Shown here piece after piece: positions 2,504-36,725 of a stretch of DNA of 64,000 nucleotides. Both the position numbers and the translations under genes were made by a program. The stretch lies in the NCBI GenBank assembly GCA_020630575.1, contig JAHDBD010000022.1, forward strand, positions 1-64,000. Direction: 5' to 3'. The notes below the pieces were generated by a model, which did no database searches, was not told where the DNA came from, and saw only the letters and a list, made by a program, of their open reading frames with translations. How positions within the stretch are numbered: the first letter of the stretch is position 1; each line of letters opens with the position of its first letter. This DNA comes from Bernardetia sp. (lineage in GTDB: Bacteria; Bacteroidota; Bacteroidia; Cytophagales; Bernardetiaceae).

Positions 2504-2550
2504 GTATAATGACAAAAAACACTTCGTAATTACAGATTTTATATTTAAAA

Positions 2551-2580
2551 AAACAATTACTTTATAAGTTATTGTTTTTC
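2551..2580 (+). terminator. Possible rho-independent terminator
   Basis: AAACAAT and ATTGTTT arms with an inner ACTT/AAGT pair, one T-T mismatch and a TAT loop, followed by T residues. It lies 48 bp after the transposase remnant. The surrounding 2504-2845 gap otherwise shows only A/T-rich DNA and the promoter listed next. Confidence 0.4.
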
Positions 2581-2692
2581 AGAAACTTAGAATTATTATA
2601 TTTTTTAGAGTTTGTTAAGGAGTGTTAAGGGATTTAGAATAGTCTTATTCTATTCATACTGGATAATGATTCTTTTTTTCTATAAAAAAGCA

Positions 2693-2722
2693 TGTGTTTA
2701 CGTAAATAAAAACCTACCTTTG
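2693..2722 (+). promoter_or_regulatory. Putative Bacteroidota promoter for the T9SS protein gene
   Basis: TACCTTTG at 2715-2722 fits the Bacteroidota -7 consensus TAnnTTTG. A TGTG (3 of 4 matches to TTTG) lies 18 nt upstream at 2693-2696. Transcription would begin near 2729, about 120 nt before the gene. A pair of ATTAYGA-type heptamers (2823-2836, minus orientation) lies between promoter and start. Confidence 0.45.
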
Positions 2723-2845
2723 TATCTTCAAATCCCCTCTATTACTATTTATTCTATTTCTACACAGAATTATCTTTAATTATAAATCACATTCTCAATC
2801 CTAAGAACAGTAATTTTTAATTTCATAATTCGTAATTGAATTTCT

Positions 2846-5800
2846 TTGATGAAAAAATCATATTCTAATTTATGCAGCCTACTTTTTGTATGCGCTGTTT
2901 TTTTGTTGAGTAATATTTACTCTTTTTCTGCCTTTGGGCAGTGTAATCCTGCTGCTAATGATCCTAGTTTTAATCCTTTGGATGTAGGATTAGGTCTAGG
3001 AGATGGTAGAAGTATTTATGGTAGTTCAAAAGTGAAAAAAATATTTGTATTACCTGATAATAAGCTATTAATTATAGGTAAGTTGGAAACTTTTAATAAT
3101 CATTACTCCAATGGCATAGCAAGATTAAATAGTAATGGGACTATTGATGATTCTTTTAGTTTAGATGAAATAGGCTATATTTCAATAGAAGATGCTGTAC
3201 CACTACCAAATGGAAAAGTTTTAATTGTTGGTGGTATGTTTTATCAAAATGCACCAAGAGGAATACTGCGACTTAATACAGATGGTAGTGTAGATAATAC
3301 TTTCACACCACCAAGTTTAATTAGCCCTACATCATTTTCTATTGATAAAATAAGAGCAGTAGAAATTCAATCAAATGGAAAAATAATTATTGGGGGAGAA
3401 ATTGATCTACCAAATAATACAATTAGAAACATAATTCGTCTTAATATAGACGGAAGTCTAGATAACACTTTTACTCAAGGACAACTAAGCCAAGACTTAG
3501 TTCCTGCTTCCATACAAGAGTTGATTGTTCAAAATGATGATAAAATCTTTGCTAGTGGTATATTTTCAGCGTATAACGGATCAAATAAAAGAGCTATAGT
3601 AAAACTAAATTCTAATGGAACAATAGACAATTCCTTCATAGGAGCAGGAACAAATAATAATGCTATTATTTATGGTATGGCACTACAAAATGATGGTAAA
3701 ATAATTATTGGAGGAACTTTTAACAGTTCTCATAATACTACAACGAAAAAATTAGCTCGCCTAAACATAGATGGGAGCTTAGACCTATCTTTTAATAACA
3801 CAAACGGTTTCTCTGATATAGATATAATTCATAATATTTCTATTCAAACAAATCAGAAAATAATAGTTTCAGGAAATTTCAACTCTTATAAAGGAGTAAG
3901 TAGAACAAACATAATACGCTTAGAACAAAATGCTGATATAGACGATTCATTTTATTGTAGAAATGTAAAAAAAACAGATGATATTCCTCAAACGCATACT
4001 ACAAGTAGTAATCCTGATGTATCTTTTACAACTCTATTGCCTAACAATCAAATTCTTACTAATGTAGATATAACACATTCTGGAGTGGAACGATTAAATG
4101 AAGATGGAAGCTGGGATAGTACATTTAATTCTAGTCAGGGATTTAATAATTCTTTAGCACAACTTATTCGCACTCCAGATGGAGGTTTTTTTGCTTTGGG
4201 AGTCTTTGGGAGATATAATAATAGGCAAGCAAATTATATTGCTAAAATTCATAGGAATGGCGAAATAGATACTACTTTTTATTTTAGAAAAAATTACATA
4301 CCTATACCTTCAAATGACATGATTGCAATGGCAGTTCAAGCAGATGGAAAATTAATAGTAGGTGGTGTTTTTAATAATAATTCTCATTCTATACCTAGAA
4401 ATTATTTGCTACGTGTAAATTCTGATGGAAGTATAGATTCAACTTTTAATGCAAATAGCGTATTTAATATCACTAGTATTATAATTAATATTTTGATTCA
4501 AACAGATCAGAAAATTGTCATAAGTGGATATATCAATGGTGAATACACTATAATAAGGTTAAATTCTGATGGAAGCATAGATAATTCATTTGCAACAGGA
4601 GGGATGAATGGCTTAACCCAGAAATTAAAACTTCAGTCAGATGGAAAAATAGTAGTAGGGGGTAGTTTTACTCAATATAAAGGAATAACAGTAACAGGGT
4701 TAATTAGGATATTACCTAATGGTGACTTAGATCCTCTATTTAATACAAACTTAAATGTAAATAGAATTCAAGAGATATGTATACAAAATAATGGCGATAT
4801 TATTATTGCAGGAGAACTACCTGATTGGTCTATTCGCAAGGTAAATAACAACGGAATTGCTTATAACAATTTTAATGTAAGTTTCAGTGACTCAAATAGT
4901 AATCCATTTGGAGCAATTAGAAATATTATTTCTCAAGATGATAACAAAATTATTGTAGCAGGAAATTTTGATCAACTTAATAGTGCTAATTTAAAAAAGC
5001 TTGCAAGATTAAATGAAGATGGAAGTATAGATAATACTTTTTCATCAGGTTCTAGTGCTGATAGTGTAATAACTAATGTGATATCAATATCAAATGATAC
5101 ACTCATAATTGCAGGAGAATTTACAAGTTATAATGGAGTAGGTAGAAACAGAATTGCACGACTTGTTGCTTCTGCACCTACTATTCCTTCTATTACATCA
5201 CAAAATTCTAATCAGTACGGATTGTGTCCAAATGATACTACTGTTTTAGAAGCTACAGGACAAGGAACAGTTTATTGGTACAATTCACTTACAAACCTTA
5301 CTCCTATTCATACAGGGGATAGTTTTACCACGCCAATTTTGACAGCCGATTCTACTTATTTCTATGTTCAGGACTCTGTTGTAGGTTGTGGAAGTAGTGA
5401 TAGATTAGAATTATTAGTTACTACTTCGTTAGCCTTAAATGCAGTAAGTAAGCCTAATTACATAGCTTATTTAGATAATACAGGTCAAGTAGAAGTAAAT
5501 GCTGCTTTACTAGACAGTATAAGTTCGGCTGGTTGTGGAAATACAATTACTTCCTTCCTTTTTGATGATACAGGTTTGGCTACTCGTTCTTTTTCTTGTG
5601 CTGATACAAATGCAGTTCACGATGTAGTTTTGAGAGTTACAGATAGTCAAGGAAATGTAGAAACATCTCCTTCTATTATTCATGTAAAAGACACAATTCG
5701 TCCAATTGTAACTGTCAGAACACTTCCAGTAAGTTTTAATGCTTCTAATCAAGCAACTATTTCTGCAAGGGATTTTCTTACTTCTTTGAGCGATAATTGT

Positions 5801-10559: not shown

Positions 10560-10626
10560 GTCGAAATTTGTTTTTAATTTTTTCGTGCTTTAAAAAGTAC
10601 GATACTCACTCTAAAGAGTAGGCTAT

Positions 10627-13850: not shown

Positions 13851-14049
13851 GGAAATTAATTTTTAAACAGAGAATCTTCAAAGTCTTTTTTTAGGGCAAA
13901 TAAACAAAATTCATTGCTAACTTTCTAAAATACTCTACGTCATAAATAGTACCTACAAATATAATAGAATAACTTTAGAAGTTAGATGTCAAAAATTAGA
14001 AATAACTTATTAGTTTTGTTGAAATTTTCTTCATTCCTTTTTCCAAATT

Positions 14050-14373
14050 ATGATCGCTCAAACATTAGAAACACCCTACTATGCCGTTGTTTTTACATCT
14101 ATTTTAAATGATGAAATAGACAAAAATCAATATTCAAAAACAGCTATTCGAATGGTAGAACTAGCAAAAGAACAGGAAGGTTTTTTAGGAGTTGAGTCTG
14201 CTAGAGAGGAAATTGGAATAACAGTTTCGTATTGGAAAGATTTGGAATCGATAAAGAAATGGAAAGTTCAATCTGAACATACTTTGGCTAGAGAAAAAGG
14301 GCGTACAGAATTTTATAAAGCCTTTAAAACTAGAATTGCAAAAGTAGAACGAGATTATGATTTTTTTATCTAA
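14050..14373 (+). CDS. ABM-fold (antibiotic biosynthesis monooxygenase-like) protein
   Basis: 107 residues: YYAVVFTSIL at the start, EGFLGVESAREEIGITVSYWKDLESIKKWK in the middle, then EHTLAREKGRTEFYKAF. This is the dimeric alpha+beta barrel pattern of the ABM family, which covers small monooxygenases and many uncharacterised stress proteins. A TAGTTTTG box at 14011-14018 could serve as the -7 promoter element, but I see no matching upstream element. Confidence 0.75.
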   Translation: MIAQTLETPYYAVVFTSILNDEIDKNQYSKTAIRMVELAKEQEGFLGVESAREEIGITVSYWKDLESIKKWKVQSEHTLAREKGRTEFYKAFKTRIAKVERDYDFFI

Positions 14374-28262: not shown

Positions 28263-28271
28263 AGTTATTAT

Positions 28272-28298
28272 GTCGTTGGTGGGGACACCAACAACGGC
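28272..28298 (+). repeat. REP-like hairpin, copy 1
   Basis: GTCGTTGGTG-GGGA-CACCAACAACGGC. The first of about nine copies between 28.2 and 42.5 kb. Oriented consensus: TYGTYGGTG-GGGA-CACCRACAAYGGCA, often followed by AATTAT. Sits 10 bp after the lysS stop. Confidence 0.8.
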
Positions 28299-28311
28299 AA
28301 AATTATTAATG

Positions 28312-28355
28312 AAAACTCCTATCTGATTTTATTTGAAATTGGATAGGAGTTTTTA
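28312..28355 (+). terminator. Terminator after lysS
   Basis: AAAACTCCTATC pairs exactly with GATAGGAGTTTT (18-nt loop), followed by a T run. It may work on both strands, but the convergent serine hydrolase gene ends 190 bp further on. Confidence 0.8.
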
Positions 28356-28360
28356 TTTAC

Positions 28361-28405
28361 AAAAATCCTCGTTGACGGCTGCATTTGAGTCTCAACGACG
28401 GTTTA
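28361..28405 (+). repeat. 45-bp direct repeat, left copy
   Basis: Starts AAAAATCCTCGTTGACGG and ends CTCAACGACGGTTTA. It matches 32383-32427 at 44 of 45 positions in the same orientation. It contains TCGTTGA/TCAACGA arms that can form a hairpin. The two copies enclose the serine hydrolase and LytS/LytTR genes. Confidence 0.85.
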
Positions 28406-28432
28406 CATTCAGAGAAAAACGCTTCCTCTCTC

Positions 28433-28460
28433 GCCGTTGTCGGTGTCCCCACCGACGACA
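28433..28460 (-). repeat. REP-like hairpin, copy 2
   Basis: GCCGTTGTCGGTG-TCCC-CACCGACGAC: inverted relative to copy 1, with C-G pairs where copy 1 has T-A in the stem. The two lie 135 bp apart around the lysS terminator. Confidence 0.8.
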
Positions 28461-28547
28461 TAACAACCACCAAACAATCACATATCAAAACCTATCATCT
28501 TCACTGTTGTCGATATCTGCAAAGATAAATTTGATCAATATTGACAT

Positions 28548-30182
28548 TTATTTTTTTTCAAACCACAAATTTCGAATTCCATTCATGGTTACCCAAAAGC
28601 CAATACTATTTCCATTTCTTTTGTACTTCGAAATTGCCATTCCTGACCAGCTCACGACATCTCTTTTAAGCACTTGAATTTCAAATTCACCAAAGCGACT
28701 ATGATAACCATATAATGATTTGTCTTTGAGCGTTATAGTATAAAAAGTTTCTAACTCGCTACTATAAAAATCTCCTGTATATGATTTTAATTCCTCCAAC
28801 GTAAGCAATTTATCTTCGTATTTTTCAAATGTTTCAGTGGAATTATTCGCAAAAATTAAAGTCATTTTTGCTGAATGAATATCAAATTTTATAACTAATT
28901 TTTCATTGATACCCCCCATTTGAAATTCTGTTTCAGATATAGGAAGTAGAGGTGATTTTTGATTGTTATTTCTTAAATACCACAAAGTATCGTTGGCTAC
29001 AAAAATTTTTCGGGAATAATTATTTTTATCGTTCCAATACATTCCTTCATTTTTTTGCAAATCTTCAATACTAATTTTAAAGGAACTTTTTATTTCTTCA
29101 ATTTTGGTAGGTTTAGATTTATTTTGTAGGAAAAGTTGGCTGATTTGATTGGCTTTCTGTGATAATTGATTTGAAGTGAAATTTGACAAAATGATAATTT
29201 GTAAGTCTTCATCAGGATAAGAATACATTATTGACTGAAAACCAGCAATAGCACCTGTATGTTGTATTCTACGATTTTCAAAAAAATCATCAATTACAAT
29301 TCCAAAAGCATAATTATTTTTCTCGCCTGAATTTAATGTAGTTAAAGTTTCAAGTATTGAAAAGGCTTTTTTCCAACTTTTAGGAGCTTTAGTATAATTT
29401 TTTGCCCAGTTCGATATATCGGCACTTGTAGAATAGACATTGGAAGCTCCATAAGTTAAATCGTTGTTTTCAACCGTTTGAAAAAATGAAGGTGCTGTTT
29501 CGGTATAAGAATTTGCCGTTTTGGTAATGATTACAGAATTATCTTCCTCAACAAAAGTGGAATTCAGGTGAAGTGGTTGAAAAACTTTTTCTTTCATATA
29601 GCTTTTGAAGTCTTGTTTAGAAATCCTTTCAATAATTTTAGCAAGTAAAATATAACCTGAATTAGAGTACATAAATTCAGAATTAGGTTCAAAATTCAAA
29701 TCTTGCTGTTTTAATAAATATCTATAAACATCATCGTTTGAAATGGCATCGCCCGAACGCCAACCTGCTAGACCAAACAACTCGGGAACGGCTCTTAATC
29801 CACTTGTGTGATGCAATAACTGCCGAATAGTTATCGTCTTTCCAAAATCAGTAAATTCAGATAAATAGGTTTTAATATCATCATCAAAGGATAGTTTTCC
29901 ATCAAGGTGTAACAAAACAATTCCCATGGCTGTAAATTGTTTTGATAAAGAACCAATATTAAAAACACTTTCTTCTGTATTTGGAATTTGGTACGGAATA
30001 TTTGCCAAGCCATACGCTTTTGTAAAAACAAGGTTGTTTTGATGTGTTACCAAAACGACACCCCCTGGATTGTTTTCTGTACTCCAATCGATAAATAAAT
30101 TATCAATAAGATTTGTAGGATTTTGACTTGTTGCTGAAAAAGTAATCAGCAATGCGACATAGATAAATGCAATTCGTTTCAT
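28548..30182 (-). CDS. Secreted serine hydrolase, beta-lactamase/penicillin-binding class C type
   Basis: 544 residues. Signal peptide MKRIAFIYVALLITFSATSQ. The class C-type core (about 25-360) has Ser78-x-x-Lys81 in FNIGSLSKQ, a YSN in FMYSNSGYILLAK, and HTGAIAGF at the KTG position. The C-terminal part (about 370-544) is a beta-rich DUF3471-like extension. Members are D-aminopeptidases, esterases or carboxypeptidases; true beta-lactamase activity is not implied. It lies downstream of the LytS/LytTR genes on the same strand and shares their promoter layout, so it is a likely target of that system. Confidence 0.88.
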   Translation of the reverse strand: MKRIAFIYVALLITFSATSQNPTNLIDNLFIDWSTENNPGGVVLVTHQNNLVFTKAYGLANIPYQIPNTEESVFNIGSLSKQFTAMGIVLLHLDGKLSFDDDIKTYLSEFTDFGKTITIRQLLHHTSGLRAVPELFGLAGWRSGDAISNDDVYRYLLKQQDLNFEPNSEFMYSNSGYILLAKIIERISKQDFKSYMKEKVFQPLHLNSTFVEEDNSVIITKTANSYTETAPSFFQTVENNDLTYGASNVYSTSADISNWAKNYTKAPKSWKKAFSILETLTTLNSGEKNNYAFGIVIDDFFENRRIQHTGAIAGFQSIMYSYPDEDLQIIILSNFTSNQLSQKANQISQLFLQNKSKPTKIEEIKSSFKISIEDLQKNEGMYWNDKNNYSRKIFVANDTLWYLRNNNQKSPLLPISETEFQMGGINEKLVIKFDIHSAKMTLIFANNSTETFEKYEDKLLTLEELKSYTGDFYSSELETFYTITLKDKSLYGYHSRFGEFEIQVLKRDVVSWSGMAISKYKRNGNSIGFWVTMNGIRNLWFEKK

Positions 30183-30212: not shown

Positions 30213-30279
30213 CAAATGTCGAATAATAGCTTCTGTTGTGAAAATAGATTATGCAAACACCTTTTTTTTGTCTGCAAAA
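30213..30279 (-). promoter_or_regulatory. Predicted LytTR operator and promoter of the serine hydrolase gene
   Basis: Read on the minus strand: TTTGCA (30278-30273), 15 nt, TTTGCA (30257-30252), 31 nt, then GACATTTG (30220-30213; 7 of 8 to TAnnTTTG), with the ATG about 31 nt further on. The half-sites are 21 bp apart, two helical turns, which is how LytTR regulators commonly bind. The same spacings recur at the lytS promoter. The remaining gap to 30517 holds one REP hairpin and an imperfect inverted repeat (30337-30349 with 30383-30395). Confidence 0.65.
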
Positions 30280-30392
30280 TATGGATTATAACATCTATAA
30301 GACTTTCGCACTACTGTATATTTTGTTAAGTAATTGGGCAGAATTACATATAAATGAACACTTTATAAAAAAATAATGTAAATTATAATTCT

Positions 30393-30419
30393 GCCATTGT
30401 CGGTGTTACCACCGACGAT
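30393..30419 (-). repeat. REP-like hairpin, copy 3
   Basis: TGCCATTGTCGGTG-TTAC-CACCGACGA, preceded by AATTATAATTC, so the conserved GGCAGAATTAT edge is present in minus orientation. Lies between the hydrolase and lytT genes. Confidence 0.75.
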
Positions 30420-30517
30420 AGTAAAATACAAATAAACTTTTGTTACAAGATACTGAGCGATTGACTGATAGGATTTGACTTCGATCTTAAAAAAAAGTAG
30501 TAGGTTACAATAACCCA

Positions 30518-31207
30518 TTAACTATTAATCTGTGCAAAAAAATGCTTTCTATATGTTTCTGAAATAGGAATAAGTTCATTTGAAATTTTAATTCGACTTC
30601 GTTCAATTTCTTCAATTTTACTAATAGCAACCATATACGATTTATGCACCCGACAAATTAATTTTGCTGATATAAGTTGCTCCAACTCCGAAAAGTTTTG
30701 AAGCGTCATAATTCGTTTGTTAGTGGTGTGTATTCTTCTGTAATCTCTCATTCCTTCAATAAACAGTATTTCATCAAGATTAACTTTTTCCAAGCGATTT
30801 TCTGTTTTTATAAAAATATAATTACTCGTCAATTCATTAGATTTGACCAATTTTTTGTCTTGAATTTTATTTACTGCTTGCAAAAAACGTTCAAATGAAA
30901 AAGGTTTTAACAAATAATCAGTAACATAAAGTTCATAGCCTTTTAAGGCATACTCTGAATAGGCAGTCGTAATAATTACCTGACAATCTAAATTAGAACT
31001 TTCCAACAACTCAATACCTGAAAGTTCGTCCATATTTATATCTAAAAAAAGTACATCTACCTTATTAGACTTCAAAAATGTCAATCCTTCAAGGGCATTA
31101 TCGAATGTTTCGAGTAAATCCAAAAAAGGAATTTTTACGACAAAACCTTTGGTCTTTTCCAATGCCAAAGGTTCGTCTTCTATGATGATACATGTATATT
31201 TAGTCAT
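30518..31207 (-). CDS. LytTR-family response regulator
   Basis: 229 residues. The receiver domain (1-about 120) has the acidic pocket EDE (10-12), phospho-acceptor Asp56 in LFLDINMDE, TTAY and the Lys of LLKPF. The C-terminal LytTR DNA-binding domain (about 130-229) has IFIKTENRLEKVNLDEILFIEGMRDYRRIHT, then LICRVHKSYMV. LytTR proteins bind paired half-sites in promoters. It overlaps the upstream kinase gene by 8 bp, so the two are translationally coupled. It probably controls its own operon and the serine hydrolase. Confidence 0.93.
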   Translation of the reverse strand: MTKYTCIIIEDEPLALEKTKGFVVKIPFLDLLETFDNALEGLTFLKSNKVDVLFLDINMDELSGIELLESSNLDCQVIITTAYSEYALKGYELYVTDYLLKPFSFERFLQAVNKIQDKKLVKSNELTSNYIFIKTENRLEKVNLDEILFIEGMRDYRRIHTTNKRIMTLQNFSELEQLISAKLICRVHKSYMVAISKIEEIERSRIKISNELIPISETYRKHFFAQINS

Positions 31208-32237
31208 TTATTAAGGTTAAGGTTACTCGGTAAGAGTTGTTGAGGTTGATGATAGATAAATTGTGCTTTTGGGGATACAAAAGTTCTATTCTTTTTCTAA
31301 TCAAATTATTTCCTATTCCACTATGTTCTATTTGAATTTTGTTTTTAGGGTTGTACTTATTTTCACACTCAAAAACTATTGTTTTATCGTCAATATTTAA
31401 GGAAATGGTTATTGCATTTTCTGTTTTTTTATTGGCTGTGTGTTTGAACGCATTTTCAATAAATGAGATTAAAAGCATGGGTGGAATCACTTGATTGGAT
31501 AAGTTTCCCTTTAGTGTAAAATGCACAAAACTCTCGTTTGCTGTTCTTGTTTTTTGTAACGCAATGTATTTTTCTATGTATTCAATTTCCTTTGATAAAT
31601 CAATTCTTTGAGCTTTAGTTTCAAAAAGCATAAACCGAAGAATATCTGATAGTTTATTTAAGTATTCAGAAGCTATTTTTGGGTCTTTGAGTATCAAGGC
31701 ATCAATGTTATTAATTGTGTTGAATAAGAAATGGGGATCTAATTGTGCTTTTACTAAGGCTAATTCAATTTGATGATTTTTAATAATGAGTTCTTCTTTT
31801 AGTTTTATTTCATCATACCAAGTAATAAAACCATTGATAATAATGCTCATTACACCTGCAAGCAATCCAATCAGTACCATAGAAAAAAGCTGAGCAAGAA
31901 AAGAACTTATACCACCTTTAAACATCATATCTAAACCAAAAAGCAGGCTTAAAAATAGTCCTCCAACAAGAGCCGAACCAACAGAAAACAAAATAGCATA
32001 AACAAGTGAAGAAACTATTTTTTTGGCTTTGATGTATTTTGTAAACAGGTAGAAATAACACAGATAAAATGTAATAACAGAAGGAATCACAACAAATGAA
32101 AATCCTACTTTGGCAATGTATCCAAAATGTATATTTGATGAAAACCCTTTTGTCGCAGCAGCGATAATCAGCAAAAGCAATAAAAAGTATAACACCCAAA
32201 ATGCTGTGTGAACAATATAAATAACTGACTTTTTCAT
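31200..32237 (-). CDS. LytS-type sensor histidine kinase
   Basis: 345 residues: four membrane segments (about 7-30, 45-65, 80-105, 120-145), a short coil (EIKLKEELIIKNHQIELALVKAQ), the His_kinase (PF06580) motif LDPHFLFNTINNIDAL with His169, and an ATPase domain with the N-box SFIENAFKHTAN and the GIGNNLIRKRIELLYP G-box. No extracellular sensor domain, so the cue is probably felt in or near the membrane. First gene of the pair with the LytTR regulator. Confidence 0.92.
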   Translation of the reverse strand: MKKSVIYIVHTAFWVLYFLLLLLIIAAATKGFSSNIHFGYIAKVGFSFVVIPSVITFYLCYFYLFTKYIKAKKIVSSLVYAILFSVGSALVGGLFLSLLFGLDMMFKGGISSFLAQLFSMVLIGLLAGVMSIIINGFITWYDEIKLKEELIIKNHQIELALVKAQLDPHFLFNTINNIDALILKDPKIASEYLNKLSDILRFMLFETKAQRIDLSKEIEYIEKYIALQKTRTANESFVHFTLKGNLSNQVIPPMLLISFIENAFKHTANKKTENAITISLNIDDKTIVFECENKYNPKNKIQIEHSGIGNNLIRKRIELLYPQKHNLSIINLNNSYRVTLTLIND

Positions 32238-32275
32238 ATTAGAAAGAATTAAAATTAATTAACTGATTAATAGGT

Positions 32276-32342
32276 CAAAAGTCTATAGTTATGAATATTT
32301 AAACAAACTTAATTTGCAAAACGGGTTATTTTGTCTGCAAAA
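32276..32342 (-). promoter_or_regulatory. Predicted LytTR operator and promoter of the lytS-lytT pair
   Basis: On the minus strand: TTTGCA (32341-32336), 15 nt, TTTGCA (32320-32315), 31 nt, GACTTTTG (32283-32276), then about 38 nt to the ATG at 32237. The upstream half-site lies in TTTTGCAGACAAAA, 14 nt identical to the hydrolase site. Identical spacing at both promoters points to autoregulation. Confidence 0.65.
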
Positions 32343-32382
32343 CAAGATTATTAGACAATATTAAGTTTTGTCTTTTATGTGC

Positions 32383-32468
32383 AAAAATCCTCGTTGACGG
32401 CTGCATTTGAGCCTCAACGACGGTTTATATTTACCAACCGTCAACGAGGCGAAAGCCGTCGTTGAGGT
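32383..32468 (+). repeat. 45-bp direct repeat, right copy, with an extra partial palindrome
   Basis: 32383-32427 repeats 28361-28405 with one mismatch (T to C at the middle). 32437-32468 adds CCGTCAACGAGG-CGAAA-GCCGTCGTTGAGG, built from the same CGTTGA and TCAACG words. It lies between the lytS promoter and the end of the restriction-modification gene. Confidence 0.8.
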
Positions 32469-32476
32469 AAAAACCA

Positions 32477-35400
32477 CTATACTTTATTATACTCCTCTTC
32501 ACTCAAGCCAAAATCTGAGTCAATAATCAAAACCTCTTCATAACTCAACTCATAGAGTTTATACACCAAAATATCAATTTCAGTTTCTAAAACACTTGTG
32601 TCTGTATCAGGATTTTGTTTTTTTGAGGATAGAATTTGATTTACTAAATTGGTTAGCTTACTTTGCATTTCAAATGAAGGTGCTGCTATAGGGATTTCTT
32701 GTAAAGTTGTGGGTTTAATTTGAGACAAAGTTCTTCCAATTTCTTGAGAAAAAAGTCTATATAAATATGTAACAAGTTTTGAATTAAGTAAAGCAAGTAG
32801 AAAAAGATTATTAGATTTTTCATTTGCGCTGAAAACATATAAACCGTCAGTTGGATAAAATTTATCTGTATCAAGAGCAACTATAACTTTATCACCTGTA
32901 ATGACTCCAATAAGTTTTTCACTTTTATCAAATATTTTTTTAGAACGTGAACGGTGTAAACTATAAAATGCGTGTTTTCCTTGTTTGACCTCTCTACAAG
33001 TTATTTTATCTTTAAACTGTTCTATATATTTTACTATATTTTTAATAGAAGATTCTTTTGTATTTCTTGTTGTGTATATTATCTTTTTGTCTTTATTTAA
33101 AATCAGATATTTTTTAACATCTTTTCCTCCTGTAACAGTAGGTTTTATAAAATTAAGTTCTAATTTATTTTGTTTGCTTATTTCATCATTTACAATGAAA
33201 GCATCTTTATAATCAGGACTAATTCCCCTTTGTATTCCATCATCATCAATAAAACTTTCAAGTGTATTAAAAGAAAATCTCTCTAATAATTTATAACCTA
33301 TTATATTCTTAGTTGGAAAAGAATTATTCGGAGTTTTTTCATACAATAATGGATTAATTTCAGAAAATTCACAATTCTGTAAATTTTCTGAATTATTTAA
33401 ACGATTAGTAATTTTAATTTTATCTAAAACTTTATTTTTAGTTTGAAAAATTAATATTGCAGAAGGACAAGCTACATCATCAAAAACTCCATCGCCTAAA
33501 TTAATGACTAATTCAAGATTCGATGTATCTAAAATTTTCTTTCTTAACTTTTTATTATCTGTTTGATAAAGAATAACATCAGGAATTATTAGCGCAGCCC
33601 AACCATCTTTTTTTTGTCTTAGAGAAAAAGATAGATTTATAAAATACATAAAAGAATCAGTCATTCTGACAATTATATCTTTATTAGATTCCTTTATTTT
33701 TTCGTGAAAATTAGGTTCTATTTTCGCTCCCCAAGGAGGATTCCCAATCACCACATCAAAACCTACAAATTCTCCTTTTTGATTCAAAACTTCTGGAAAC
33801 TCAAAACGCCATTCAAAGGCATTTTGATAAATTACATTATTTAGTAATCCTTCTTTTTCTTCTTGTGCTTTGTTTAGAGCTAGTTTTAGTTTTTTGAGTT
33901 CTGCACTTAGAGTTTTACTTATTTTTTCTCCAAATGCTTCTAGGTTTTGTACTTCGGTTTGTTTTTGTTCTAGTTTTCCTCTTGCAGACGCTATTTTTTT
34001 CTTAAATTTTCCATCTAATGTTCCTGTAAAAGCTGATTTTATTGTATCAATAATTTTGATAATTTCTCTTTTTCGCTCTTTATTATTGGTATTTTTGTAT
34101 TCCTGAACAGCGTTTTTGTAATCTTTCAGACTGTACGGATTGTCTTTGCTTTTGAAGGCATTTTTCAAATCTTCATCTAGCTCAAAACGACTAATCAAAG
34201 AGTTTCCAGTTTTGATATTAATATCAATATTTGGCAGCGTTTGAAGTTGATTTTCTTGAGTATAATACGCATTTTTCAAAAGTTCTATCCACAAACGCAA
34301 CCTACATATTTTGACAGAATTTGGATTAATATCTACACCAAAAAGACAGCTTTCAATAAGACTTTGTTTTTCATGAAAAAGCGTTTCTTGTAGGCGTTGA
34401 CTTGTTTTATTTTTGGGTTTGTAGGTGAAAATTTCTTCGTTTTCGTCTTCAATAATCAATTCATCATTATCAATCTGAATATAAGCATTCAAACGTTTTC
34501 CGTCTTTATCTATCAAAACACCGAGTTCGCTTTTTATGGCGATAAGTTCGTTCAATGCACTTACCAAAAAGTGTCCAGAACCCACAGCAGGGTCACATAT
34601 TTTGAGTGAATTAATGATTTGATTAGCTTCTTTTCGGATAGTTTCTCTATCGCCATTTCGAATATAATCCCTCAAATCTTCTTTTAGCTGCTCAAAATTG
34701 CTACATTTCCACGTATAATGTGTATTGAATTTCTGCACGACAGCCCTACGCAATGCTTCTTTAGCCATATACATCGTAATATAGGCAGGCGTATAAAACG
34801 AGCCGTCTTTGTAGCCATTTATTTTTTCAAAAATAAGTCCCAACACAGAAGCCGAAATAAGCGTTTTGGCTTGATTGCTCTCATCTACTTTTTCGCCTTT
34901 TTCTCCACTGAAATCGTAGGCTTCCAAAAAGCGAAAGATATATTCTAGTGTAGGTAAACCACCCGTAAGACGTTGCAAATTATTTTTCAGAACCGTTTTA
35001 TCATAGAGTTCTAAATCAATTTCTTTCAGATTCGAAATTTGCAGAGCTTTATCTTCTAACTGGTTTGGCTCAAAAAGCGAACTATTTAAGTAGGGAATAT
35101 GATTGTATTTTTCTTTTATGCGTTCGTTTCGGTCTTCTATTTTCTTGGCTAAAGCAGAAAAAAACAATTCTTCCAAATCATCGTAACCAGTAATAAAATC
35201 AGTATTCAGAAATTTATATTTCGAATCCTGATTATAAACTACCAATTGAGATTCTAATAATTTGAGGAATAAAATTCGGTTTATCCACGTCAGACAAAGC
35301 TCTAAAGCGACATTGAATAATTGTTCTTCTTTATTCTGTCCATACGTTTTGAGATTATCTACTTTTCTCAAATAATCTCTATCTTCCAAAATAAAAATAG

Positions 35401-36271
35401 TCGTTTCTAAGAGTGAGCCGTCATTTCGTGTTCCTTTTTCTTTTCGCTGGATTACTTTTTTGCCTTTCTCTTTTACTTCTTCTAGTCCGATGATGTGCAA
35501 AAGTTCGTAATAAAACTGCTTGTTGAGTTGATTGCTATCATTTCCGTACGATTGTGCCAAAAGATGAATCGGAGAAAATACTTTGTACAGAGAAACTAAC
35601 TTGTCATCATCTGTATTTTCGATAGGTAAAAATTCTTGAAAGTCTTTTTTGATATCGATATATAGAAATGGCAATTCGTCTTTTACTTCTTCAATATATT
35701 TTTTAGCAATTTCATTGTAGAATAACTCATTTTTGGAAGAATCTTTTTGCTTGTTTACAAACTCGTTATATTCTTTGAGCAGTTTTTTATTTTTGTAAAA
35801 TGTATTGTAAAAATCTTCTCCTTTAAAAAAATACCATTCATTGCCATTCGTAGCAATCAAATATTTGATTTGATTATTTTCTAATGTTACTCGTTCTCTC
35901 AAATAATAGAGCAATAGTTCTTGTAATGCTTTTCTATTGAGGTTATCTGTTTTCAAGAACTCACTTTTATTGCTTGGTCGTTTGGCTTCTATCAAAACGC
36001 TAATATTGCTTGTGGCATCTTTTCCAGCGTAAATAGCCAAATCAATTTTGTCTTTTGTATTGATTAAATATTCTTGATAAAATGCTTGGTGCAAAAAATC
36101 GCCTACATATTTTTTTATATTCTCTTCGCTTTCGTTTTTCTCTTCGCTTATTTTGATATGCTCCAAACAGATATTCAATGCACTTTTGAAATTATTTATT
36201 TCATTTCTAGTAACATTAATCTTGCGATAAGCAGGACTGAGGATTCTACTTGGTTTTGTAATTTTGTTCAT
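32477..36271 (-). CDS. Type IIG restriction-modification enzyme (Eco57I-like, single polypeptide)
   Basis: 1,264 residues. The N-terminal nuclease-like part (about 20-170) has LAIYAGKDATSNISVLIEAKRP, the acid-x-Lys core of a PD-(D/E)xK fold near residue 94. A helical connector follows. The adenine-N6 methylase has motif I ICDPAVGSGHFLVSAL near 560 and motif IV GNPPWG near 844. The C-terminal part (about 960-1230) has a TaqI-type target-recognition region ending IPIAAPSFEMQSKL. It would cut and methylate DNA itself, using SAM, with no separate S subunit. ATG at 36271. Palindromic repeats lie on both sides. The recognition site cannot be read from sequence. Confidence 0.9.
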   Translation of the reverse strand: MNKITKPSRILSPAYRKINVTRNEINNFKSALNICLEHIKISEEKNESEENIKKYVGDFLHQAFYQEYLINTKDKIDLAIYAGKDATSNISVLIEAKRPSNKSEFLKTDNLNRKALQELLLYYLRERVTLENNQIKYLIATNGNEWYFFKGEDFYNTFYKNKKLLKEYNEFVNKQKDSSKNELFYNEIAKKYIEEVKDELPFLYIDIKKDFQEFLPIENTDDDKLVSLYKVFSPIHLLAQSYGNDSNQLNKQFYYELLHIIGLEEVKEKGKKVIQRKEKGTRNDGSLLETTIFILEDRDYLRKVDNLKTYGQNKEEQLFNVALELCLTWINRILFLKLLESQLVVYNQDSKYKFLNTDFITGYDDLEELFFSALAKKIEDRNERIKEKYNHIPYLNSSLFEPNQLEDKALQISNLKEIDLELYDKTVLKNNLQRLTGGLPTLEYIFRFLEAYDFSGEKGEKVDESNQAKTLISASVLGLIFEKINGYKDGSFYTPAYITMYMAKEALRRAVVQKFNTHYTWKCSNFEQLKEDLRDYIRNGDRETIRKEANQIINSLKICDPAVGSGHFLVSALNELIAIKSELGVLIDKDGKRLNAYIQIDNDELIIEDENEEIFTYKPKNKTSQRLQETLFHEKQSLIESCLFGVDINPNSVKICRLRLWIELLKNAYYTQENQLQTLPNIDINIKTGNSLISRFELDEDLKNAFKSKDNPYSLKDYKNAVQEYKNTNNKERKREIIKIIDTIKSAFTGTLDGKFKKKIASARGKLEQKQTEVQNLEAFGEKISKTLSAELKKLKLALNKAQEEKEGLLNNVIYQNAFEWRFEFPEVLNQKGEFVGFDVVIGNPPWGAKIEPNFHEKIKESNKDIIVRMTDSFMYFINLSFSLRQKKDGWAALIIPDVILYQTDNKKLRKKILDTSNLELVINLGDGVFDDVACPSAILIFQTKNKVLDKIKITNRLNNSENLQNCEFSEINPLLYEKTPNNSFPTKNIIGYKLLERFSFNTLESFIDDDGIQRGISPDYKDAFIVNDEISKQNKLELNFIKPTVTGGKDVKKYLILNKDKKIIYTTRNTKESSIKNIVKYIEQFKDKITCREVKQGKHAFYSLHRSRSKKIFDKSEKLIGVITGDKVIVALDTDKFYPTDGLYVFSANEKSNNLFLLALLNSKLVTYLYRLFSQEIGRTLSQIKPTTLQEIPIAAPSFEMQSKLTNLVNQILSSKKQNPDTDTSVLETEIDILVYKLYELSYEEVLIIDSDFGLSEEEYNKV

Positions 36272-36293
36272 GTATTTGTTTTAGGGTTAAATT

Positions 36294-36356
36294 ATTGTCG
36301 GTGGGGACACCGACAATGGCAAAAAATAGCCGTTGTTGGTGTCCCCACCAACGACA
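36294..36356. repeat. REP-like hairpin pair, copies 4 and 5, head-to-head
   Basis: 36294-36320 (ATTGTCGGTG-GGGA-CACCGACAATGGC) and 36329-36356 (GCCGTTGTTGGTG-TCCC-CACCAACGAC) face each other across an 8-nt A-rich spacer. Within each, the stem is paired, but copy 4 uses C-G where copy 5 uses T-A, a compensatory change. 23 bp upstream of the restriction-modification start codon. Confidence 0.85.
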
Positions 36357-36435
36357 AAAACATATCATATTTTTTACAACACCACCAAATTTCTTTGAAA
36401 GAATAAAACTATAAAAAAAACAATTCCTTTCCAAT

Positions 36436-36474
36436 AAAAAAATCCTATTCAATCATAACAATTGAATAGGAACT
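36436..36474 (-). terminator. Terminator on the minus strand, downstream of amt
   Basis: CCTATTCAAT and ATTGAATAGG arms (10 bp, 7-nt loop) with a run of A at 36436-36442, which becomes U7 on the minus strand. It is about 250 bp past the amt stop, beyond a cluster of repeats. Confidence 0.75.
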
Positions 36475-36572
36475 TGTTGTATGTGTGTTCAGAATTTTCT
36501 TATGAAAAAAGAAAAATACTGTTGTTGGTGTGACCACAATAGTCATAAGGCTATTAAGAAATTTTGGTTTTT

Positions 36573-36668
36573 ACTCCGTATAGGAGTTTCATATTGGTAG
36601 ATAGAAACAGAAACATCAAAATTCATTTACTCCGTAGGATTACTACCAATATAAAGTTCCTACGGAAC
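36573..36668. repeat. Inverted pair of CTCCGTA...CATATTGGTAG elements
   Basis: 36573-36600 and 36643-36668 are imperfect inverted copies sharing TCCGTA, GGA and ATATTGGTAG; a third partial ACTCCGTAGGA lies between (about 36629). Each arm also contains its own small hairpin (ACTCC-GTAT-GGAGT type). A degenerate REP copy (GTTGTTGGTGTGACCACAA) is at 36521-36539. I do not know this family. Confidence 0.6.
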
Positions 36669-36680
36669 AGAAGACTACCT

Positions 36681-36708
36681 GCCGTTGTTGATGTCCCCAC
36701 CAACGACA
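36681..36708 (-). repeat. REP-like hairpin, copy 7
   Basis: GCCGTTGTTGATG-TCCC-CACCAACGAC: same as copy 5 except one G-to-A in the left arm. 17 bp from the end of amt. Confidence 0.8.
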
Positions 36709-36725
36709 AAAAATTATTCCAAAAA

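Follow-up and report, generated by a model that had tools for sequence, protein, structure and literature searches.

Several described systems pair a sensor kinase with a LytTR-domain regulator. AgrAC, ComDE and BtsSR combine such a pair with direct repeats spaced 21 bp apart, with positive feedback in several of them, and in the LytS-LytT (LytSR) systems a PF06580-type kinase and a LytTR regulator control cid and lrg. In S. mutans, the LytTR sites of the LytTR Regulatory Systems (LRS) consist of two 9-bp repeats that lie 11-12 bp apart and 4-11 bp upstream of the -35 element, and the hdrRM repeats were shown to bind and activate (PMC6193735). LytTR regulators are numerous in some Bacteroidota, with 20 listed for F. 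johnsoniae (PMC5395568). A described operator for Bacteroidota LytTR regulators was not found in the literature that we searched, which consisted largely of papers available without subscription.

Here we describe a kinase-regulator-hydrolase cassette in a 64,000-nucleotide stretch of DNA from Bernardetia sp. (contig JAHDBD010000022.1; hereafter the window). Like AgrAC, ComDE and BtsSR, it combines a kinase, a LytTR regulator and 21-bp repeats, but its half-site differs from theirs and its regulator falls far below the family cut-offs (BtsR NF008677, 101.3 of 246 bits; LytR NF010684, 93.2 of 375 bits). An earlier sequence-only reading had named the pair lytS-lytT, a name that we do not retain: in addition to the regulator's low LytR score, the kinase has no NCBIfam match at E 0.001, and Pfam detects His_kinase only, with no LytS-type sensor domain. 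Its outputs are a hydrolase or envelope proteins, in contrast to LytSR. The regulator is nevertheless a LytTR response regulator by both of its domains (PF00072, 59.6 bits against a cut-off of 30.2; PF04397, 58.1 against 22.6). The ATG of its gene lies within the 3' end of the kinase gene, and the kinase motifs PHFLFNT and ENAFK are invariant in eight aligned sequences, window included. Among the matches listed (60 of 77), a search of solved structures matched the receiver domain only, so that residues contacting DNA could not be mapped from them.

The cassette resembles the streptococcal LRS (HdrRM, BrsRM; PMC6193735) in its LytTR domain, direct-repeat pair, 12-bp spacer and apparent autoregulation combined with effectors. 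It falls outside the LRS in that its regulator carries a receiver domain and is partnered by a histidine kinase, whereas LRS regulators are paired with a membrane inhibitor (PMC6193735). Most LRS half-sites described there are ACCNCTTA-like and belong to -35/-10 promoters, whereas those of the cassette read TTTGCANA and belong to candidate -33/-7 promoters; unlike the LRS, the cassette also has an exchangeable output gene and triple half-sites. Overall, it is known in kind, a two-component system of LytTR type that has direct repeats at a 21-bp period and probably regulates itself; its half-site, promoter grammar, three-site output promoters and exchange of outputs look undescribed in the literature searched. 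The motif would predict direct targets of one LytTR subfamily from sequence alone and provide a phosphorelay with a testable output promoter, and the cassette would offer a compact, naturally transferred regulatory circuit with an exchangeable output.

Matching operators at the kinase and hydrolase promoters

Both the kinase-regulator operon and the hydrolase gene are preceded by TTTGCA-N15-TTTGCA-N31-GACNTTTG on the minus strand (Table 1). Direct reading and pattern search confirmed this observation of the sequence-only reading, the pattern being exact at 32341-32276 and 30278-30213 with the box reading GAC(T/A)TTTG. The half-sites stand exactly 21 bp apart in both promoters, and exactly 31 nt separate operator from box in each; the 31-nt stretches themselves are unrelated, and their spacing alone is kept. 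The likeness exceeds what had been described: a 14-mer, TTTTGCAGACAAAA, is the same in both sites. From box to ATG there are 38 nt at the kinase (ATG 32237), as given before, and 30 nt at the hydrolase (ATG 30182), not 31.

Table 1 Positions of the cassette's genes, regulatory sites and bracketing repeats in the window
Feature	Position	Strand	Details
Sensor histidine kinase	31200-32237	minus	PF06580 E 4e-23; hydrophobic multi-helix N-terminus by eye
LytTR response regulator	30518-31207	minus	PF00072 E 4e-16, PF04397 E 1e-15
Exported S12-type serine hydrolase (output gene)	28548-30182	minus	PF00144 E 5e-59; signal-like N-terminus by eye
Operator 1 (kinase promoter)	32315-32341	minus	TTTGCAGA + TTTGCAAA, start to start 21 bp; matrix score 38.3
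Operator 2 (hydrolase promoter)	30252-30278	minus	TTTGCAGA + TTTGCATA, start to start 21 bp; matrix score 34.0
Likely -33 element TTG, kinase promoter	32304-32306	minus	commonest TTG offset in other loci
Candidate -7 box, kinase promoter	32276-32283	minus	GACTTTTG; consensus TAnnTTTG (PMC9723704)
Candidate -7 box, hydrolase promoter	30213-30220	minus	GACATTTG
59-bp direct repeat bracketing cassette, left copy	28351-28409		family D5, 93%
59-bp direct repeat, right copy	32373-32431		93% alike to left copy

Flavobacterial sigma-A promoters, as described for F. psychrophilum, carry TAnnTTTG at -12 to -5 (PMC9723704). The window's boxes have GAC where this consensus has TA; they resemble the flavobacterial -7 element, so that the operator would occupy an activator position. 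We read the layout as operator, -33 TTG, about 20 nt and -7 box, which would put the half-sites upstream of the core promoter, near -48 and -69, with the third of a triple array near -90. Counted from the start of the last TTGCA, the kinase-promoter TTG begins 13 nt on; at the -33 place of the hydrolase promoter stands TTT rather than TTG. Direct repeats of about 9 bp, lying about 12 bp apart with a 21-bp period just upstream of a predicted core promoter, identify both sites as putative LytTR operators. This geometry fits LytTR autoregulation as published, in which 9-bp direct repeats separated by a 12-bp spacer stand just before the core promoter (PMC6193735).

With up to one mismatch admitted, the full pattern matches the window's own genome (5.3 Mb, 84.5% complete) at these two places only, both exact. 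Across 390 genomes of the order, seven matches are exact: two in the window's genome, two in a second genome of its species, and one each in G313, G325 and G084. Six of them adjoin this kinase or hydrolase, in line with the earlier expectation that exact matches would be few at unrelated places; those in G313 and G325 lie upstream of kinase relatives (48% and 38% identical), and at the G084 match (L282) kinase, regulator and hydrolase were none of them seen within a 3 kb locus. Admitting one mismatch yields 29 matches in the 390 genomes, against 11 for the reversed pattern; ten are in such cassettes and 19 elsewhere, including one (G226) that follows a kinase gene from the same broad family.

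The half-site pair without the box has 11 exact matches in the own genome (1 for the reversed pattern), nine of them without a box, and 34 matches in the window at up to two mismatches, against 23 expected; by these counts the pair alone is unspecific as a marker and the pair plus box is specific. The 14-mer was also rejected as a marker, with three exact matches and 481 at up to two mismatches (347 reversed). A weight matrix trained on kinase promoters of other genomes, with the window excluded, sets the two window sites (scores in Table 1) apart: of 127,926 window positions, the next in rank scores 5.5. The own genome holds a third exact match to the 28-base core of the site, at C5:63175 (score 19.8), inside a gene resembling an aminotransferase such as bioA (named by eye) and with ATAGGATT at 31 nt; we attribute it to chance because it is intragenic and has no box 31 nt on. 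The motif was absent from the other eight LytTR loci of the own genome (about 3.3 kb each), where the best score was 8.2.

Conservation of the operator and promoter layout

We scanned named genomes for relatives of the regulator and used the best 80 of 565 confirmed stretches, which are nearly all from Bacteroidota and encode regulators with 64-84% identity. Two metagenome-assembled genomes (MAGs) titled Chloroherpeton (L100) and Pyrinomonadaceae (L167) carry regulator and operator, pointing to cross-phylum transfer or misbinned contigs.

A kinase start and upstream DNA were available in 68 of these loci, with 12 excluded for a missing kinase, a non-adjacent kinase or a contig edge; leaving out the 8 loci of the triad clade (below) gives a set of 60. 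Perfect TTGCANA pairs stand before the kinase in 23/60 loci of this set (from the best 80 of 565) at a spacing of 21 bp, and in 0/60 at all remaining spacings between 10 and 35; with one mismatch, the counts are 34/60 at 21 bp and at most 5 at other spacings. The site consensus is approximately cATTTTGCAGACAAAT..CCC..TTTGCATAT.

For a broader measure of conservation, we built a matrix from 39 kinase-side sites of these loci, holding out the output-side sites and the window, and chose a threshold of 15.5 after reversed sequences (946 kb, both strands) had peaked at 14.9. Sites scoring at least 15.5 number 152, all 152 on the sense strand, and are found in 77 of the best 80 of 565 loci, a conservation that supports the earlier interpretation of the locus as a self-regulating circuit. 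They merge into 124 arrays, only 3 of which lie inside an ORF of at least 200 aa, against 73% of random positions (best 80 of 565). Operators at this threshold precede the kinase in 55 of 69 usable upstream regions (one locus more than the 68 above), a count that is partly circular because the matrix derives from kinase-side sites, and follow the regulator in 59 of 78 usable downstream regions; no site reaches 15.5 in the other 14 and 19, and both sides carry one in 41 loci (best 80 of 565). Among eight far relatives (L080-L087), five have a site of at least 15.5 (L080, L081, L084, L086 and L087), and L085 has no site scoring over 8.

The promoter layout recurs as well. A [TG]A..TTTG box stands 31 nt past the last TTGCA in 20/55 kinase and 33/59 output promoters, with the next commonest distances reaching 5 and 1, respectively; this strict pattern is absent at 31 nt from 35/55 and 26/59 (best 80 of 565). 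A TTG follows the last TTGCA at 13 nt, counted start to start, in 13/55 kinase and 33/59 output promoters, and the two elements occur together in 5/55 and 20/59 (best 80 of 565).

Output promoters often carry a further half-site. A third half-site with at least 5/6 letters lies exactly 21 bp upstream in 26/52 non-hydrolase output promoters (at most 2 at any other offset from 14 to 30), a lower bound because the register was set on the distal pair in some rows; at kinase promoters it is found in 5/55 (at most 2 at other offsets; both counts from the best 80 of 565). Hydrolase promoters have it in 1/7 at 21 bp (L108), with 2 at another offset. A three-site array may give the output promoter tighter or more cooperative regulator binding than the autoregulatory one.

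Output genes and possible mobility of the cassette

Kinase, regulator and hydrolase are arranged as in the window in seven other loci among the best 80 of 565 (L088, L089, L091, L092, L093, L094 and L108); these loci come from four Flavobacterium species, one Saprospiraceae MAG and two other MAGs. Six of the hydrolases are full-length and 51-69% identical to that of the window. In the seventh (L092), a 448-aa gene (2528-3874), transposase-like by eye, breaks into the hydrolase about 75 residues from its start, and the contig ends soon after the hydrolase resumes. Both operators are visible in 7/7 loci, the kinase-side one of L108 scoring 14.2, under threshold. On the hydrolase side a [GC]A..TTTG box follows at 31 nt in 7/7, although in L094 it falls beyond the ATG picked by the ORF rule; on the kinase side the distance is 31 nt in 6/7 (L108 counted by eye) and 30 in L094. 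Orthologous triad loci thus keep both genes and spacing, and the loss of spacing that would have spoken against the sequence-only reading was not seen among them. An eighth locus of the clade, L090, keeps the kinase operator with GACTTTTA, and no hydrolase was found in the 313 bases between regulator and contig end. Three far relatives (L084, L086 and L087) are arranged hydrolase-kinase-regulator, with the operator at the head of the operon before the hydrolase, which is 28% identical in L086 and L087 and split over two frames in L084.

The hydrolase belongs to the S12 / class C beta-lactamase-like group by its PF00144 match and its SxxK, YxN and K/HxG motifs. S78xxK81, Y172 and H308xG310 are invariant in nine aligned sequences, window included, and in L086 and L087 the YxN motif has T in place of N. 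Among the matches listed (25 of 46 NCBIfam), it falls under the specific beta-lactamase and peptidase cut-offs. The nearest solved sequence is the PBP-related beta-lactamase-like protein 2qmi, followed by peptidases of the same superfamily, including alkaline D-peptidase and D-aminopeptidase. The hydrolase is likely to be a peptidase or esterase acting in the envelope.

Across the best 80 of 565 loci, the gene after the regulator varies (Table 2; genes were classed by clustering, with family names tested on one or two members per class). The three-gene circuit proposed earlier is supported, with the amendment that its hydrolase is one of many outputs that the module carries.

Table 2 Output classes among the best 80 of 565 loci (last column: members with an operator of at least 15.5 after the regulator)
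Output	Loci	With operator
Outer-membrane beta-barrel PF13568	29	22
TonB-type with CarbopepD_reg and Plug domains	10	8
DUF2306	8	7
Window's hydrolase type	7	7
Small secreted protein without family	3	3
Papain-like	2	2
DUF4386	2	2
Mixed singles including DUF2807, quinone oxidoreductase, DoxX	9	7
Not classed	10	1

In L167 an operator precedes an ABC transporter gene in the kinase's run, and L164 looks alike (the family was checked for L167). We placed the output labels on a regulator tree made by a quick method; it leaves 44/85 inner branches open and brings long rows together, so that it is usable for clustering and not for dating swaps. The labels cluster: the 8 groups take 18 changes, where shuffled labels average 39.9, and 10 changes remain when the mixed group is left out. 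The TonB label is scattered as if random (11 changes for 11 rows, 3 of them forced by the starred branches), and the TonB-type output may therefore be an older one that others replaced. Across these arrangements the operator stays with the circuit, and gene order and output vary around it.

A direct repeat brackets the cassette (Table 1); with up to 3 mismatches admitted, 35 bases of it match the genome in 13 copies. A second genome of the window's species also has the regulator (E 1e-65). The genomes of five other species of the genus, which are 92-99% complete, lack both the regulator and the full pattern; among these genomes of the genus, the cassette is thus confined to the window's species. 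The window's regulator is nearest to Flavobacterium ones (84%; best 80 of 565), though its host belongs to the Cytophagales. Two genomes show the empty site. In G003, the pre-cassette DNA is followed by 14 bases and then by window position 36721, with one repeat copy at the empty site; in G005, it continues at window position 32469, with the next gene partly there (81-82% identity) and no cassette. For G001, G002 and G004, the 11.6-17.9 kb taken aligned on the lysS side only, the junction lying outside the alignment. These empty-site junctions indicate that sensor, regulator, output and both operators were gained or lost together, as a unit.

The surroundings of the cassette have features of their own. 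The adjoining 1264-aa gene (32477-36271) matches PglX-type adenine methyltransferase models below their cut-offs, and is partly present in G005 and absent at this place in G003. Long hairpin-forming intergenic repeats of the GTCGGTGGGGACACCGAC family lie at 28264-28298 / 28433-28467, 30387-30423 and 36286-36711. In L246, from the same-species genome G098, the repeat region next to the kinase operator is expanded, at about 4650-5650, into several head-to-tail units of about 150 bp.

The proposed circuit and its alternatives

The locus is very probably a self-contained two-component cassette with positive feedback and one effector. We infer that a membrane kinase senses a signal in the envelope or outside the cell and phosphorylates the LytTR regulator. 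The regulator would then bind head-to-tail half-sites (approximately TTTGCANA) 21 bp, or two helical turns, apart upstream of the -33/-7 promoter. There it would activate, rather than repress, its own kinase-regulator operon as well as the output gene next to it, which in the window encodes an exported serine hydrolase.

The regulator might instead bind both operators and repress, or the operators might mediate negative autoregulation; regulators commonly repress their own genes, and a sequence does not reveal whether control is positive or negative. We consider this unlikely, however, as the half-sites would lie upstream of the core promoter (near -48, -69 and, if three, -90) and not over it, and the core promoters look weak. 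Repeats placed just upstream of -35 activate in S. mutans hdrRM (PMC6193735).

A second alternative concerns the identity of the binding protein, since the pairing of regulator and operator is drawn from sequence. Most LRS operons are tabulated with ACC-type repeats (PMC6193735), which the half-site does not match, and, scored on the 28-base core alone, the window's hydrolase-side site (28.3) is surpassed by two matches in genomes without the regulator at E 1e-65 (30.4 and 29.1). Yet the five best of 117 exact core matches in the 390 genomes all lie upstream of this kinase, above the regulator-less maximum of 30.4, and the three regulator-less matches that we looked at (in G072, G318 and G134) have no -7 box at 31 nt. 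Moreover, regulator and full pattern are missing together from the five other species of the genus, and 21-bp direct repeats are typical of LytTR sites. Use of the motif by some other DNA-binding protein is accordingly a distinctly improbable reading. That the two window sites are alike merely through recent promoter duplication, devoid of regulatory meaning, would explain the shared 14-mer, but we regard it as next to impossible: the intervening 31 nt are unrelated, relatives with hydrolases of 51-69% identity keep the spacing in both promoters, and an operator footprint in 77/80 loci (best 80 of 565) speaks against mere duplication.

The positive-feedback cassette could have a wider form. 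Throughout the phylum, related clusters carry the same switch, often before another output, and the cluster therefore looks portable and its output exchangeable. We see an even balance for and against a Bacteroidota-wide, mobile plug-and-play module. In this reading, one kinase-regulator pair would move from genome to genome as a closed circuit, keep a fixed operator grammar (two half-sites at its own promoter, often three at that of the output, and 31 nt to the -7 box) and exchange unrelated outputs, among them hydrolase, outer-membrane barrel, TonB-type protein, DUF2306, papain-like protease and DoxX.

Two loci show operators in other arrangements. L114 has a very strong one (46.2) at 10620, with no non-overlapping ORF of at least 100 aa directly behind it. 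L095, from Flavobacterium, has three separate operator arrays (3737-3758, 5719-5740 and 14049-14070), which precede a DoxX gene with a serine hydrolase behind it, the kinase, and another gene near the end of the stretch.
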